Below, piece after piece: positions 28,455 through 34,801 of a stretch of 47,687 nucleotides of DNA (the first letter of the stretch is position 1; each line of letters starts with the position of its first letter). The position numbers and the translations under genes are program-made. The DNA is from Methanomicrobiales archaeon. GTDB taxonomy: Archaea; Halobacteriota; Methanomicrobia; Methanomicrobiales; Methanospirillaceae. The stretch covers positions 1 through 47,687 of the forward strand of contig JANXYM010000028.1 of NCBI GenBank assembly GCA_025350045.1. The letters are read 5' to 3'. The notes below the pieces were generated by a model. That model saw only the letters and a list, made by a program, of their open reading frames with translations. It was not told the origin of the DNA and made no database searches.

Positions 28455-28844
28455 ATGACCGTTGCACGATTCTGGAGAAAGATCCCCCAGCGCTACAACC
28501 TGATCGGGACAAAATGCGAGACCTGCAACCGCCACTTCTTCCCCCCGCGGACTTTCTGTCCTGACTGCCGCAGGGAAGGAAAGATCGTGGACCACAAGTT
28601 TGCAGGAAAGGGGACGATCGTCACGTTCACGATCATCCAGACAGCCCCCGACCAGTTCGCCTCCCACGGGCCGTACGTGCTTGCCATTATCAAGCTCGAT
28701 GAAGGCCCCCAGATGACCTCCCAGGTTGTATGCGACCCCAGCGAGGCAAAGATCGGTATGCGGGTTAAGAGCATCTTCCGCAGGATCGCCACCGATGGCG
28801 AGAGCGGCATCATCCACTACGGCACAAAGTTTGCGCCGGAGTGA
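28455..28844 (+). CDS. DUF35 (OB-fold, zinc ribbon) CoA-channel protein
   Basis: The 129-residue protein has the rubredoxin-like zinc ribbon of DUF35 (CETCNRHFFPPRTFCPDC, about residues 23-40) followed by an acyl-CoA-associated OB fold (GKGTIVTFTIIQTAPDQF, YVLAIIKLDEGPQMTSQVVC). In the characterised methanogen complex the DUF35 subunit bridges thiolase and HMG-CoA synthase and shares their CoA site. The start at 28455 directly follows the thiolase stop. The 28845-29082 stretch after it is A-rich and holds no gene. Confidence 0.95.
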   Translation: MTVARFWRKIPQRYNLIGTKCETCNRHFFPPRTFCPDCRREGKIVDHKFAGKGTIVTFTIIQTAPDQFASHGPYVLAIIKLDEGPQMTSQVVCDPSEAKIGMRVKSIFRRIATDGESGIIHYGTKFAPE

Positions 28845-29082
28845 AGGAATCTTTTTTTAGGATCATTTTTTGATGATAATCAAACGAGGATCGGCCAGAG
28901 CCATAGCTTTGTGAAAAAATTTGATAGTGCGGCTGTGTTCCGGCACCGGGTGAACATGCTCCCAAACTGCAGGTGTGATATAAGGCTCATAAAATCAGGA
29001 AGGATTTTACTGGGGATTTTTAAAAAATTTGTAATAAAAGGTCATGAAAAAAAGAATTTTTCCGGGCGATTAAAAAAACATT

Positions 29083-30063
29083 TTAGCAGGTACCCTGACC
29101 GGTTCCGGCTTGCAAGGTACCAAGGGAGATTGCACAGGTATCCGGCTGCGTATTGAACCCACAGCAGAGCAGGGATTTCACTGCTTCCGGCGTCCTGCCT
29201 CCAAAGTCGAACTCACTGACCGTGACACCATTCAGGATAAGTGTGGGGGACCCGCTGACGCCATACGTTGCCGAGCGGGTGAAGTCTTCCTGTGCGTACC
29301 GGATTCCCCGGCTTTCATTGCTAATGCACCCGGAAAGCTTGGAGGTATCGACCCCCGTGGATTTCTCACAGGTCTCTGATGACGGGGAACTGATAAAACA
29401 GGAGACGTACTTCCAGTACGTTGCCGGCTGTTCCTCGCGGATGCAGATCTGTCTCAGGTTCTCAACTGCTTCGGGTGAGCCATGCATCGACTGGACCGTC
29501 CCATTCGAGATCTCACCGATATACCGGACCTTGATATTTTTTGACAGGTCCGGGATCTTCGCAACAACATCTGCAAGAATTTCCTGCATTTGGGTTCCGT
29601 ACGGGCACCGGGAGACGACAAATGCTTCTATTACCGGAGAATCCTGCTTTTTTATGTCAGCACAGGTCTTTTTTACCGCGGCCGGTCCTCTCGCTGCGGG
29701 AACTGTTGAACCGGGCTTCTGGCTGCCGGCACCCAGTTGATAGGATGCGGGGAACAGGTACTTCCCGTCCTTTGTCATGTAGGCATTGATGGTCCGATTA
29801 CCCGTCGAAGAAGTAAACTCTGTCGAGATCCTGTACACCCCGCTCTCTTCGGTTACGTTCAGCAATTTTACACTCTCATCTGTACCAATCAGGTTGTTGC
29901 TGATGAAGCTGACCGCTTCCCGGGCTGCCGGGTAACCACCGGAAGATTTACTGAACAGGGTATTGCCTGAAGCCAGGTCATAAGACCCGGTCAGGCCCAG
30001 TATGACAGACAATGCAAAGAGAAGAATGAATATAATGCTGACGAGCTTCCACGGGTTATCCAT
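29083..30063 (-). CDS. Membrane-anchored DsbA-like thioredoxin-fold protein, monothiol
   Basis: The 326-residue protein has an N-terminal anchor (about 7-25, LVSIIFILLFALSVILGLTG). A small extracellular domain of about 80 residues follows (YRISTEFTSSTGNRTINAYM), then a linker, and a thioredoxin/DsbA-like domain from about 140. The active-site motif is CPYG (C153, FVVSRCPYGTQMQEILADVV) instead of CxxC, and the cis-Pro loop is GVSGSPTLILNG. Six further cysteines (for example ICIREEQ, YVSCF, TCEKS, LSGCI, LLCCG) suggest disulfides outside the cell. A monothiol site rules out a classical oxidase mechanism. Isomerase, carrier or metal-binding roles remain open. It precedes, divergently, the Cys-rich thaumatin-like gene, whose disulfides it might help to form. 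Confidence 0.8.
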   Translation of the reverse strand: MDNPWKLVSIIFILLFALSVILGLTGSYDLASGNTLFSKSSGGYPAAREAVSFISNNLIGTDESVKLLNVTEESGVYRISTEFTSSTGNRTINAYMTKDGKYLFPASYQLGAGSQKPGSTVPAARGPAAVKKTCADIKKQDSPVIEAFVVSRCPYGTQMQEILADVVAKIPDLSKNIKVRYIGEISNGTVQSMHGSPEAVENLRQICIREEQPATYWKYVSCFISSPSSETCEKSTGVDTSKLSGCISNESRGIRYAQEDFTRSATYGVSGSPTLILNGVTVSEFDFGGRTPEAVKSLLCCGFNTQPDTCAISLGTLQAGTGQGTC

Positions 30064-30253
30064 CGATTCACCAATTTTCCTGAATAGTTAGCAGTATGAG
30101 AGTGTATAAAGGCCCTGTATCTGGTTCAGGAAAGGGATTAAATTGCAGGCATGCAGGTCCCTGTACGCATTTAACCTGAAAAATCCGTGGGCCCAGGCGC
30201 TTGTTGTATCGAATAATTACTTCAATAGTATTATGCCGGTAATTGTATTCTAT

Positions 30254-30289
30254 TGTGATTTCAGATCACATAAATATCATTGATGTGAT
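30254..30289 (+). promoter_or_regulatory. Operator-like half-sites around the TATA box of the thaumatin-like gene
   Basis: TGTGAT occurs at 30254-30259 and 30284-30289, with its complement ATCACA at 30265-30270. The last two form a perfect 6-bp inverted repeat flanking the TATA (TAAATATC at 30271-30278). Expected transcription start is near 30300 and the ATG is at 30310. A regulator bound here would cover the TATA. The site lies in the 246-base gap shared with the divergent DsbA-like gene. Confidence 0.45.
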
Positions 30290-30309
30290 TATCACCGTTG
30301 AGCGATTCT

Positions 30310-32451
30310 ATGAAAATTCTTACGCTACTGATTTTTTTTTTGATTTTTCTGCTTGCAGCCCCTGTTGCAGCCGATATGCACCAGCTGAGGTTTACGAATA
30401 ATTGCAACCAGCCGGTATGGGTCAACGTGCAGGGCGGACCCCCGGGAATCTGTGACAATGATTTTGAAACAGATCCGGTGACACATGTAACCTCTCATGT
30501 AAAATGCAGCGCATGCTCGATGTGCAAAACCGGACCTAATAAACTATGCAACACATCGATCTCCACAGGTGGTTCCGGGCCTATATGTTGTCCGATGATG
30601 ACCGATAAACCGGCCTGTAATACCGGCGAGTTCTGTGCGAAGAATGACTGTTGCCCCGCAATTGGTCTGACTGGAGGCAAGACGTACCCTTGTCCCGGGG
30701 TCAACAGCACCACGCCTGGCTGCCAAAATATGAGCATGACGTTTGCCCAGATTGCCAGCCTGAGCGGATATAATAACGCTACATCCGGATTGCACAGGGC
30801 AACGTGCTCCGGTAATATTGTAGGAAATGGTGGCTTCAAACTCGATACAAACGGCGATACGAGAACCTACAATGTCAATGACGGCTGGCAGGGGGCCTGG
30901 TTTGGCAGGACCAACTGTTCGTTCTCGGGCGATTTGGGAAGCTGTGAGACCGGCGACTGCCCCGGTACGGATGGATGGAGCCACCTGCAATGTGGCGGGA
31001 TTGGATCCCTGCCTCCCGCAACCAAAGGGGAGATGAACATGGAGATCAGCAATGGGATCGATTACTATGATGTCAGCCTTGTCGATGGTTTCAACCTCCC
31101 CATGGAGATCAGGCCCGTTGATTTCAATCCGTCATTTTCCAACAGTGGGGATCCTGCCGGGCAATTTACCTGTAAAGCTGCCGGATGCCTGAACACCTCG
31201 ACACTGAGCGCTTGCCCTGCAAACCTGACCTACAAACCAAACGGGAATCTGGTTGCGTGCCAGGATGACTGCAACCGGGCAACCACGCTGCACACAACAA
31301 ATCCGCTCATGTATCCGGATGCGGTAGTGAAGGCGTACTGCTGTCCGGACAATGAGTATTGCTCTCCCATCAATCCCTGTGGAACGACGACAAGCACCTG
31401 TAAAGCATGGCTGACAAACCCCGGGAACTGCAAGAACTGTTCTGCCTATCACGGCATATACCCTAACGGGTACCCCACCACTACAGACCTGCCAAATTCA
31501 GCGATCTTCTTCCACGATGCCTGCCCGAATGCCTACAGTTTCACCTACGATGACGCAGCTGCAAGTTATACCTGCAACAGCACCCCGTCTACCGGCCTGC
31601 GGACAAAATACAATATCACGTTCTGTGCTGCTGCCCCAAGACCAACCCTCACCCAGACTCCTGCTCCTTCACCTGCAACCACTCACGGGGAAAATGGCGG
31701 TTCTGATAGCGGGGGATCGGGCGTTGCATCTGCACCTGCGGCAAATGCCGGAGCAACACTCACATTCTCATTCAACCAGCAGCCCGGTGCATCAGCTCCG
31801 GTCGCGGTGAACCAGGTGCTGGTTGTAACAGGACAACCGACAGAGGGCATGACCATGATCGCACAAACGGTAACTCTTGGATCCGCTATGCAGATTCAGG
31901 GACGACCGGTTGCAGGATACCTGCTGATTGATCCCATCGGTATCAGTCCGGGTATGATTAGCCAGGGAACCATCACGTTTGTAGTGAGTCCGTCATGGCT
32001 CACCAGCCATAACGCGGCACCTGCTGATATTGTCCTGATGCGGTATCACAATAACCAGTGGACTGAACTGCCGACAACGTTTACCGGCCAGTCAGGAACG
32101 TTGTATAATTTCCAGGCGGTTACTCCCGGGTTCTCGTACTTTGCGATAACGGTAAAAACACAAACCAATGCAACAATCCTGGCCACATCATCCATTATTC
32201 CCGTCACCAGTATCCCGGTATCGGATTCTGCAGGAATCCCCGGAATCATCACTCAGCTCCCTGTTACCAATGCACCCATCACTACCACAACAACCGTTCC
32301 ACCGGTGTCACCTGCACCCCAGAATGCGTTCCCCTTAACGACTGCCATTGCGGTCATAGGGGCAGGTGTTATTGTTATCGGAGGGGCAGTCCTTACCCGG
32401 CGCTGGTGGATCCGCCGGCAGAATCCGGCATTGTTCAAAGATATAGACTAG
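30310..32451 (+). CDS. Secreted thaumatin-like protein with PGF-type surface module
   Basis: The 713-residue protein has a signal peptide (1-21, LTLLIFFLIFLLAAPVAA). Its text then follows plant PR-5/thaumatin proteins: LRFTNNCNQPVWVNVQGG near the start; AWFGRTNCSFSGDLGSCETG with DCPG; KGEMNMEI; DYYDVSLVDGFNLPMEIRP; and late CPNAYSFTYDDAAASYTC with YNITFC. A Cys-rich insert of about 115 residues sits between the first strand and the core. After a Ser/Gly/Pro linker, residues about 480-620 resemble PGF-pre-PGF domains (RYHNNQWTELPTTFTGQSGT, AVTPGFSYFAI). A Thr/Pro stalk and C-terminal helix (about 678-698) anchor it to the envelope. Thaumatin-like proteins bind or cut beta-glucans in eukaryotes. 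The archaeal role is unknown, and transfer from another domain is likely. ATG 30310 is preferred over TTG 30298. Confidence 0.85.
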   Translation: MKILTLLIFFLIFLLAAPVAADMHQLRFTNNCNQPVWVNVQGGPPGICDNDFETDPVTHVTSHVKCSACSMCKTGPNKLCNTSISTGGSGPICCPMMTDKPACNTGEFCAKNDCCPAIGLTGGKTYPCPGVNSTTPGCQNMSMTFAQIASLSGYNNATSGLHRATCSGNIVGNGGFKLDTNGDTRTYNVNDGWQGAWFGRTNCSFSGDLGSCETGDCPGTDGWSHLQCGGIGSLPPATKGEMNMEISNGIDYYDVSLVDGFNLPMEIRPVDFNPSFSNSGDPAGQFTCKAAGCLNTSTLSACPANLTYKPNGNLVACQDDCNRATTLHTTNPLMYPDAVVKAYCCPDNEYCSPINPCGTTTSTCKAWLTNPGNCKNCSAYHGIYPNGYPTTTDLPNSAIFFHDACPNAYSFTYDDAAASYTCNSTPSTGLRTKYNITFCAAAPRPTLTQTPAPSPATTHGENGGSDSGGSGVASAPAANAGATLTFSFNQQPGASAPVAVNQVLVVTGQPTEGMTMIAQTVTLGSAMQIQGRPVAGYLLIDPIGISPGMISQGTITFVVSPSWLTSHNAAPADIVLMRYHNNQWTELPTTFTGQSGTLYNFQAVTPGFSYFAITVKTQTNATILATSSIIPVTSIPVSDSAGIPGIITQLPVTNAPITTTTTVPPVSPAPQNAFPLTTAIAVIGAGVIVIGGAVLTRRWWIRRQNPALFKDID

Positions 32452-32599
32452 GATACTCAGATTGTCTGCAAGACGGGCAAAGCTGAGATTCTCTACAATA
32501 AAAAAATATTTTTTCCAATGGAGCGCCACTGGGGACGGGCATTGTATAATCCACTCAGGCATAATGAGTATCCCGCAGGAACTTTTTTTTAAAATTCAG

Positions 32600-33343
32600 T
32601 TACCGTGCGTCATCAGGACCTTCCCCACACAGTTCCTGCACAATCCGGATGGCCTTTTCTTCCTCGCCCGCGGGCACAGGAATTGTGACATCAAATGGCT
32701 GGATAATGAAGCGGCCGACCAGCTGGCTGAATGAAAAAATAATCATTGCCGGCCCCTTTTTATCCGCTTTCCGGTACGAGCACCCATCCCGCCACATCAG
32801 GAACGATCGGAACGGGTAGACTGCTCCTTCATAGATGATCCCGGTTCGGGCAATGAACGCTTCGTGGGGTGCATGCATCGCCCGCCGCCGTTCGAACCCG
32901 GGGGCAACCCGGGAGATGAGATACAGGAAAACGGCAAAGACAAGCAGGAAGAGACCCGTCTCAAGACCCCCGTCAGCCACAAAGAGCAGGAAGATGAGAG
33001 CCACAAGTACGAGCATCCCGCCGATAACGATGAACATGGCCCGGTTCCGTTCCCGGTAATCCCGGTATTCCCGTTCCGCACTTGCGCGGGCCATCTCCTC
33101 CGGATAGATCCAGTGCGCAAGCGGTACGGGGCCGGTGAGAATCTCATCCATGACCCGTGCCCGGTGGACAAAGAGCAGGGCGACTGCAATACCGCTGACT
33201 GCGAGGAAAAAAGAGACGAATGCCAGTGCGTAGCCACCGCTCATGCCATCCAGGGTAAAAAACGAAATGATGCAGACGAACGAGAAAACAACAGCGGTGA
33301 TCAGCGAAGCTGCAACTTTTTTCCACTCATTGTTGGGCGTCAT
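32600..33343 (-). CDS. Four-helix membrane protein with soluble C-terminal domain
   Basis: The 247-residue protein has two helical hairpins in the membrane (about 10-32, 37-59, 103-120 and 125-143; for example AASLITAVVFSFVCIISFFT and AMFIVIGGMLVLVALIFLLF). A charged cytosolic loop of about 40 residues separates them (EREYRDYRERN). The C-terminal 90 residues are beta-rich with a final helix (TGIIYEGAVYPFRSFLMWRD ... EEEKAIRIVQELCGEGP), reminiscent of a PH-like membrane-associated domain. No family is recognised. It is convergent with the thaumatin-like gene and downstream of the SpoIIE phosphatase, 78 bases away on the same strand. Confidence 0.75.
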   Translation of the reverse strand: MTPNNEWKKVAASLITAVVFSFVCIISFFTLDGMSGGYALAFVSFFLAVSGIAVALLFVHRARVMDEILTGPVPLAHWIYPEEMARASAEREYRDYRERNRAMFIVIGGMLVLVALIFLLFVADGGLETGLFLLVFAVFLYLISRVAPGFERRRAMHAPHEAFIARTGIIYEGAVYPFRSFLMWRDGCSYRKADKKGPAMIIFSFSQLVGRFIIQPFDVTIPVPAGEEEKAIRIVQELCGEGPDDAR

Positions 33344-33421
33344 GGATTCCTTATGCTCTATGAGGTCCTCAGGTAATTTTGATTTTCGATCAGGAGAGGC
33401 TCAGTCCCCCATTATCTGGTA

Positions 33422-34801
33422 TCAGATGACCTTTACTACCATCAGGGTGATATCATCGAACTGGGGTTGCGTGCCGCTGAAGGCAAAGACAGAGCGGATA
33501 ATTTCATTCGCAATTTCCTGGGAAGAGGAATCACCGTTTTTCCGGATGATCTCAATGAGCCGGGGAACATCATACATCTCCTCCCGGTCGTTCACTGCTT
33601 CGGTGATACCATCGGTGTATAATACAATAACATCCCCCGGAAACAGGGGTAACTCCTGCTGCTCATATTCAGCATCATCCAGTGCCCCGACAGCAACACC
33701 GGTTAAAGAAAGTTCCTCAATTTCACCGGTCTTTTTCCGTAATACAATGGGGGGATTATGCCCGGCATTGACATAGGTGAGTGTCCGGGTTTCATTGTCA
33801 ATAACCCCGTAAAACAGGGTAACGAACATGCCGGTTTTTGAATTGTTCGCAATGATGGGGTTTGCAAAGGATATCACTTCTGACGGTTTTTTGAACCACA
33901 TCGCCGTGACCCTGACAACAATCCGTGACAGGGCCATGAAAAGTGCTGCCGGCACCCCTTTGCCGGATACATCGGCAATCATAATCCCCGTCCGGGTATT
34001 GCTCATGGGGATTACTTCAAGTGGCATGACATCGAAAAAGTCCCCGCCCACTTCTTTTGCCGGTATGCTTTTTGCAGCGATATCAAATCCCTGTGTTACT
34101 GGAATAGTCTCAGGAAGGAAATTTCTCTGGATCTCTGCAGCAATCTGGAGCTCGGCATCCTTTCGTGCCATCTCGAACTCCAGTTTCTCCTTCGCGAGTT
34201 TCATCCTCCGTTCACTGAGCAGGTTCTGGATGATGGTCGAGAAGATGAAGACGGCCACCATATTGGTAATAATCATGGGGATGGCAACCACGGTAAGAAT
34301 GGTAACCCACTGCGCTGCGGGTGTTGCCACGATGATCGTTATCAGTGAGACCAGAGACTCCACCAGGGCAACAAACACAACCGCAACCCGGGTTGGTACA
34401 AGCTCGCGTTTGTTGACAAGGTACATCACACCTCCGAGGAGCCCGGCAAGAACCGGGGCAACCAGCCCGGTATACATATACGGGCCACCCTGGGCGCACC
34501 GATACAATCCCCCGATCATACCGGCACCGATACCCACATACGGGCCGCAGCACAGGCCGGCAATGATCGGACCTAAGTCACGGACATTGAGAACTGCTCC
34601 GTACAGGGTAACGCCACTGATCGTCCCGTATACCGACAGGAGGCCAAAGACTGCAATAAGGAGAATCTGGGTCTTAATTGACGGTTTTTTTTCAAGAATT
34701 TCCAAAAAATAGCGGCTTCGGGTAAACAGGTACGCAAAAACGATGATCACACAGATCATCTGGAAAAGGGTGATGCTGCTCTGGACGATATTAATTTCCA
34801 T
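33422..34801 (-). CDS. 5TMR-LYT membrane sensor with SpoIIE/RsbU PP2C phosphatase
   Basis: The 459-residue protein has six N-terminal membrane helices of the LytS 5TMR type (residues 1-200). The signature is VLNVRDLGPIIAGLCCGPYV, GAGMIGGLYRCAQGGPYMYT and GLVAPVLAGLLGGVMYLVNK. A signalling helix follows (AELQIAAEIQRNFLPETIPV), then a PP2C-type phosphatase (about 240-459). Its metal-binding motifs are AKEVGGDFFDV, MIADVSGKGVPAALFMALS, YVNAGHNPP, LYTDGITEAVNDR and FDDITLMVV. All key Asp residues are present, so it should be active. The partner (anti-sigma-like or other Ser-phosphoprotein) is not in the window. It is divergent from the FabH-like gene. Confidence 0.93.
   Translation of the reverse strand: MEINIVQSSITLFQMICVIIVFAYLFTRSRYFLEILEKKPSIKTQILLIAVFGLLSVYGTISGVTLYGAVLNVRDLGPIIAGLCCGPYVGIGAGMIGGLYRCAQGGPYMYTGLVAPVLAGLLGGVMYLVNKRELVPTRVAVVFVALVESLVSLITIIVATPAAQWVTILTVVAIPMIITNMVAVFIFSTIIQNLLSERRMKLAKEKLEFEMARKDAELQIAAEIQRNFLPETIPVTQGFDIAAKSIPAKEVGGDFFDVMPLEVIPMSNTRTGIMIADVSGKGVPAALFMALSRIVVRVTAMWFKKPSEVISFANPIIANNSKTGMFVTLFYGVIDNETRTLTYVNAGHNPPIVLRKKTGEIEELSLTGVAVGALDDAEYEQQELPLFPGDVIVLYTDGITEAVNDREEMYDVPRLIEIIRKNGDSSSQEIANEIIRSVFAFSGTQPQFDDITLMVVKVI

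Follow-up and report, generated by a model that had tools for sequence, protein, structure and literature searches.

Thaumatin-like proteins (TLPs) have drawn study as sweeteners, as food allergens and for their part in plant defence, and their known activities are beta-glucan binding and, sometimes, beta-glucan hydrolysis (PMC3048497, PMC13251364). Several of them bind beta-1,3-glucans, according to a report cited in PMC13251364. The acidic cleft of these proteins is tied to five residues known as REDDD, which, themselves or as an equivalent, are fully retained by 13 of the 18 TLPs that represent the eukaryotes there (PMC3048497). The GH64 beta-1,3-glucanases and the TLPs belong to one superfamily, and in the yeast SUN proteins a thaumatin-type domain forms a canyon that fits beta-glucan (PMC13251364). 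TLPs are also known outside eukaryotes. The original prediction, which placed the family chiefly in plants, fungi and animals, omitted the bacteria, where one member has been solved (7P22 of Amycolatopsis) and a Streptomyces plasmid gene is annotated 'thaumatin family protein'. A literature search of titles and abstracts found no paper evidently on archaeal TLPs, none combining thaumatin and Methanoregula, and none for structure 7P22. As Pfam's own model detects the archaeal proteins, database entries for them probably exist.

In this study, we analysed a stretch of 47,687 nucleotides (the window) from a Methanomicrobiales archaeon, in which an open reading frame of 713 amino acids (30310-32451, forward strand, start ATG at 30310) encodes a TLP, and the family is thereby placed on the predicted surface of a methanogen. 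With plant TLPs of the Pru av 2 / Mal d 2 type (2AHN, 3ZS3; PR-5), the window protein has in common the predicted fold, the 16 cysteines, the Glu and Asp of the cleft and the motif order, but it has Ala for the Arg of REDDD, adds two Cys-rich inserts, and is fused to a PGF_pre_PGF domain, a stalk and a membrane helix. Bacterial TLPs (7P22, the Streptomyces plasmid gene and the Syntrophorhabdus protein L023) are likewise prokaryotic and secreted, and those of Syntrophorhabdus also combine all 16 cysteines with the lack of the cleft Arg. However, the bacterial proteins have neither a Cys-rich insert of the archaeal kind nor PGF_pre_PGF, and they occupy separate branches of our tree (7P22 not being in it). 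The plant TLP-kinases likewise carry a TLP ectodomain followed by a membrane helix (PMC3048497), whereas the window protein has no kinase and only a short cytoplasmic tail. The GH64 enzymes and the SUN proteins have a thaumatin-type fold, there around a beta-1,3-glucan groove, but their identity to the window protein is very low (9-14%), and the SUN proteins differ further in having a sushi-like domain and no REDDD (PMC13251364).

Family membership, predicted fold and disulfide cysteines

The window protein is a true thaumatin-like protein, related to thaumatin, the sweet-tasting defence protein of plants. Pfam PF00314 (Thaumatin) matches it at E=5.6e-31, with 108.3 bits against a cut-off of 27.4, so the profile search proposed as a check gave a significant match; in a Pfam search to E=10 no other family, hence no GH64 profile, was found. 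Its best solved relatives by phmmer are the cherry and apple TLPs (2ahn, E=9.3e-21; 3zs3, E=3.3e-19). The thaumatin segments follow one another in the predicted order, namely NNCNQPVW at residues 30-37, RTNC at 200, CETGDC at 212, DYYDVSLVDGFNLP at 251, ACPNAYSFTYDD at 404 and ITFC at 436, and the domain is complete in its profile match, its 16 canonical cysteines and its TLP-like predicted fold.

An AlphaFold2 model of residues 22-445, built on 13 sequences, has a mean pLDDT of 53, with poorly modelled inserts (<50). The top Foldseek matches of its core are TLP crystal structures (3zs3/2ahn; E=1.3e-15, TM 0.75 to target), and the thaumatin fold that had been anticipated is the one found in the model. 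GH64 beta-1,3-glucanases rank after the TLPs (E=1.4e-4, TM 0.35-0.37 to target, identity 9-14%). A shorter TLP from another Methanoregula genome yielded a better model (mean pLDDT 68) with the same top fold (TM 0.78), and Foldseek with this relative indicates that the thaumatin-like xylanase inhibitor TLXI shares the fold. Since Pfam, the solved relatives and the fold search all returned thaumatin, neither a missing profile match nor an unrelated fold speaks against the original prediction.

In an alignment that includes TLPs of plants, fungi and bacteria, the window protein shows all 16 canonical cysteines and 18 extra ones (34 together), none of them after residue 440. We take the disulfide order of the thaumatin and osmotin crystal structures to be 1-16, 2-3, 4-5, 6-15, 7-14, 8-9, 10-11 and 12-13; a literature search for thaumatin disulfide numbering found no paper. 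The 12 other archaeal TLPs in the alignment keep 8-12 of the canonical cysteines and constitute a natural series of disulfide losses. Pairs 7-14 and 8-9 are gone in all 12, pair 4-5 in two, and pair 1-16 in three, one of which has also lost 6-15. There is not a single case among the 12 of a cysteine lost without its canonical partner, and only 42 of 2,000,000 random pairings matched the observed loss patterns equally well. That the losses respect the canonical pairing argues, at the level of the alignment, for a real fold and for bonds that do form in archaea.

Domain architecture and predicted surface anchoring

The protein, all of whose features lie on the forward strand, starts with a putative signal peptide (residues 1-21, 30310..30372; hydropathy 2.3-2.8 over residues 1-23), which leads into the thaumatin-like domain (residues 22-445, 30373..31644; PF00314, phmmer to 2ahn, Foldseek to 3zs3). 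The Cys-rich insert described earlier after the first strands is real. It spans residues ~44-170 (30439..30819; pLDDT <50), with 14 cysteines between residues 48 and 166, and the other archaeal TLPs have a shorter version of it in the alignment. Beyond this insert there is a second Cys-bearing one at residues ~348-395 (31351..31494), which in the alignment occurs only in the window protein. The module, stalk and helix expected behind the TLP domain are all present: a PGF_pre_PGF domain (TIGR04213, NCBIfam E=3.2e-18; residues 547-614, 31948..32151), a stretch rich in Thr and Pro (residues ~625-671, 32182..32322) and a C-terminal membrane helix (residues ~672-697, 32323..32400; hydropathy up to 2.25) followed by a basic tail.

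The signal peptide and the C-terminal helix are predicted cell-surface anchoring signals, in agreement with the envelope-anchored location first suggested. The suggested fusion to an archaeal sorting module, on the other hand, holds for the PGF_pre_PGF domain but not for the PGF-CTERM sorting signal. NCBIfam gave no PGF-CTERM match at E<=1, and we do not class the protein as a PGF-CTERM (archaeosortase) substrate. Because PGF_pre_PGF is a domain and no such sorting signal was found, the anchor appears to be an ordinary membrane helix. Archaeal TLPs are mounted in several ways, by a membrane helix in the window protein, by a lipobox-like start in L004 and by a Pro/Thr tail in others, and two are fused to further domains (L026 to SdrD_B, E=1.8e-25; L027 to PKD, E=6.4e-11). 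Such varied surface attachments would fit a ligand-binding surface domain.

The acidic cleft and the likely function

The acidic-cleft segment, located by alignment and motif positions, covers residues ~184-261 (30859..31092) and includes Ala196, Glu241, Asp254 and Asp259. In the window protein, PATKGE keeps its Glu, and YYDVSLVDGF and YDD keep their Asp residues. With the REDDD residues presumably those of the osmotin structure, the Arg corresponds to Ala196, so that the full set of five is not present. This Arg, ahead of FWxRTxC, is found in plants, Puccinia, Streptomyces and two other bacteria; all archaeal and Syntrophorhabdus rows of the alignment have another residue in its place. The acidic cleft that had been expected is therefore there in its Glu and Asp positions and lacks its Arg. 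As REDDD is a property of most but not all members, we do not regard it as defining the family or its lack as excluding membership; its Arg being lost in all archaeal members, the ligand or the affinity may differ.

The family, the fold match, the retained cysteines, most of the cleft acids, the surface-type architecture and the archaeal distribution are computed, whereas glycan binding, the identity of the glycan and the benefit to the cell, like everything beyond membership, fold and predicted location, we infer. Known TLP activities, the retained acids and the surface-type mounting together make glycan binding the likeliest role. The protein would be a secreted, membrane-anchored TLP of a Methanoregula-type methanogen, its domain held outside the cell by the PGF_pre_PGF domain, the stalk and the C-terminal helix. 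The cleft would most likely bind polysaccharide, with beta-1,3-glucan-type glycans from plant callose, fungal wall debris or bacterial exopolysaccharide as first candidates, and binding could let the cell or aggregate stick to biomass or partners. It is probably best described as a candidate beta-1,3-glucan-binding surface protein, and the reading as a whole, in which a surface-anchored TLP uses a polysaccharide-binding cleft, for beta-1,3-glucan-type glycans first, in adhesion to biomass or partners, seems to us evenly balanced between right and wrong. The Foldseek match of the model to GH64 also speaks for it; against it, Pfam recognised no carbohydrate-active gene among the immediate neighbours. 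A wider view, that archaea of the Methanoregula group have evolved a family of thaumatin-fold surface glycan receptors which have remodelled disulfides, an altered cleft and partner genes of their own, and that these determine the biomass or the syntrophic partner to which the cells attach, is speculative and rather doubtful. If the protein does bind glycans, it would open to experiment the way in which these methanogens attach to partners or to decaying biomass.

Alternatively, the domain may bind protein, as an adhesin or as an enzyme inhibitor like TLXI, and leave the cleft unused; it might, for instance, attach the cells to syntrophic partners. The SdrD_B and PKD fusions of its relatives, the large Cys-rich inserts as a possible binding surface, the shared fold of TLXI and the TLPs of syntrophic-type bacteria are in keeping with such a role. 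However, the inserts vary across the archaeal TLPs while the Glu and Asp positions of the cleft are conserved, and we consider it unlikely. A role as endo-beta-1,3-glucanase, in which the protein would resemble GH64 and certain TLPs of plants and fungi and free sugars at the surface of the cell, is a still weaker candidate and quite improbable: the Foldseek match to GH64 and the retained Glu and Asp speak for it, but that match is weak, the REDDD Arg is missing, and the methanogens of this group, which live on hydrogen or formate, are not known to consume sugars. Very unlikely is an antifungal or antimicrobial effector with the plant PR-5 role, since the protein appears to be anchored by its helix and not released, Pfam recognised no defence gene among the immediate neighbours, and target fungi are unshown for these anoxic habitats, even though antifungal activity is common among eukaryotic TLPs (PMC3048497). 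Attack on fungi or plants, glucan hydrolysis and defence are unsupported as functions, and polysaccharide binding remains our preferred reading.

Distribution and origin

The archaeal TLP does not stand alone, nor is it an isolated plant gene; it belongs to a scattered family in close kin. Fourteen of 100 related genomes, the window's included, carry TLPs, all of them in the window's family (Methanoregula and kin) and spread over five genera; two carriers (G036 and G048) are single-contig genomes, and the window's genome encodes a further TLP that is shorter. When the phylum was sampled evenly (295 genomes), 7 had a TLP, again all in that family. The named TLP records are from Methanoregula, Methanoregulaceae, Methanomicrobiales, a Methanospirillaceae bin and a Euryarchaeota bin. 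Genus codes in common suggest that the window comes from Methanoregula or a near relative. At L012, one in-frame TGA interrupts the TLP gene of G044. Three Syntrophorhabdia-type bacteria (L023, L024, L025) also have TLPs, which are scattered in their phylum; those of the three are 16-Cys proteins without the cleft Arg, encoded downstream of a ClpB-like gene. No TLP relatives were found in the viral contigs searched, and a plasmid search found them only in Streptomyces.

A maximum-likelihood tree was built from 13 archaeal, five eukaryotic and five bacterial TLPs, 7P22 being left out; its plant and fungal sequences were taken from printed alignments and hence miss a few residues. The 13 archaeal proteins form one side of a branch (94/90), with eukaryotes and bacteria mixed on the other, and the window protein is the deepest of the archaeal members, on a long branch (1.3). 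With only ten non-archaeal sequences, the tree settles neither direction nor donor, and the phylogeny that had been called for yields one archaeal group. Transfer from another domain, as originally proposed, is possible but unproven, the archaeal TLPs grouping beside the five eukaryotes and five bacteria and not nested in eukaryotes. The archaeal proteins also bear on whether a prokaryotic pool gave rise to the eukaryotic TLPs. A recent transfer from a eukaryote is unsupported. Juniper is the closest in the tree set by identity (39% over 195 columns) and the corresponding site is empty in two relatives, but contamination, or a recent gain by this genome alone from a plant or fungus, is most improbable and was rejected, given the single archaeal group with its common insert position and common loss of the cleft Arg, the single-contig carriers, the PGF_pre_PGF fusion and the archaeal flanking genes.

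Neighbouring genes

Divergent to the TLP gene lies a gene for a membrane-anchored, thioredoxin-like (GILT/DsbA-like) protein (29083..30063, reverse strand; Pfam GILT E=1.8e-5), for which a search of solved structures found no relative. The pair sits between DUF35 and the next genes. In L071 and L072 the stretch 28844-33422 with the pair is absent, and HMGS, thiolase and DUF35 are followed directly by the SpoIIE gene; the near relative L074 has a partial copy of the membrane gene after DUF35. With the site empty in relatives, either this lineage gained the pair or those relatives lost it. The TLP of L026 adjoins a relative of the thioredoxin-like protein (45% identity). A dedicated disulfide catalyst next to the TLP is a lead only, as the neighbour's CPYG motif has a single Cys, in G024 this site holds a relative with no TLP there, and co-occurrence with TLPs is weak (3 of 4, p=0.008, and p=0.06 within the genus).

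A divergent conserved lipoprotein with a Cys-rich end adjoins eight shorter archaeal TLP genes (e.g. L018:4521-5588), six recognised by neighbourhood and those of G013 and G024 by coordinates. Of the 11 genomes with close orthologues, 10 also carry a TLP (p=6e-10 over 100 genomes, with no correction for kinship). The eight do not include the window TLP, and the lipoprotein of its genome lies on another contig. A family profile search with the lipoprotein found no match, and its assignment as transglutaminase-like from the motif GDSDEK, supported by no profile, was dropped. At L028 (5099-5614), and also at L027, L029 and L030, a gene for a DUF6790 membrane protein ends at the start of a long TLP gene. 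In the window, the gene at 33422-34801 joins a 5TM-5TMR_LYT membrane domain to a SpoIIE phosphatase, and its relatives are common in the genus.
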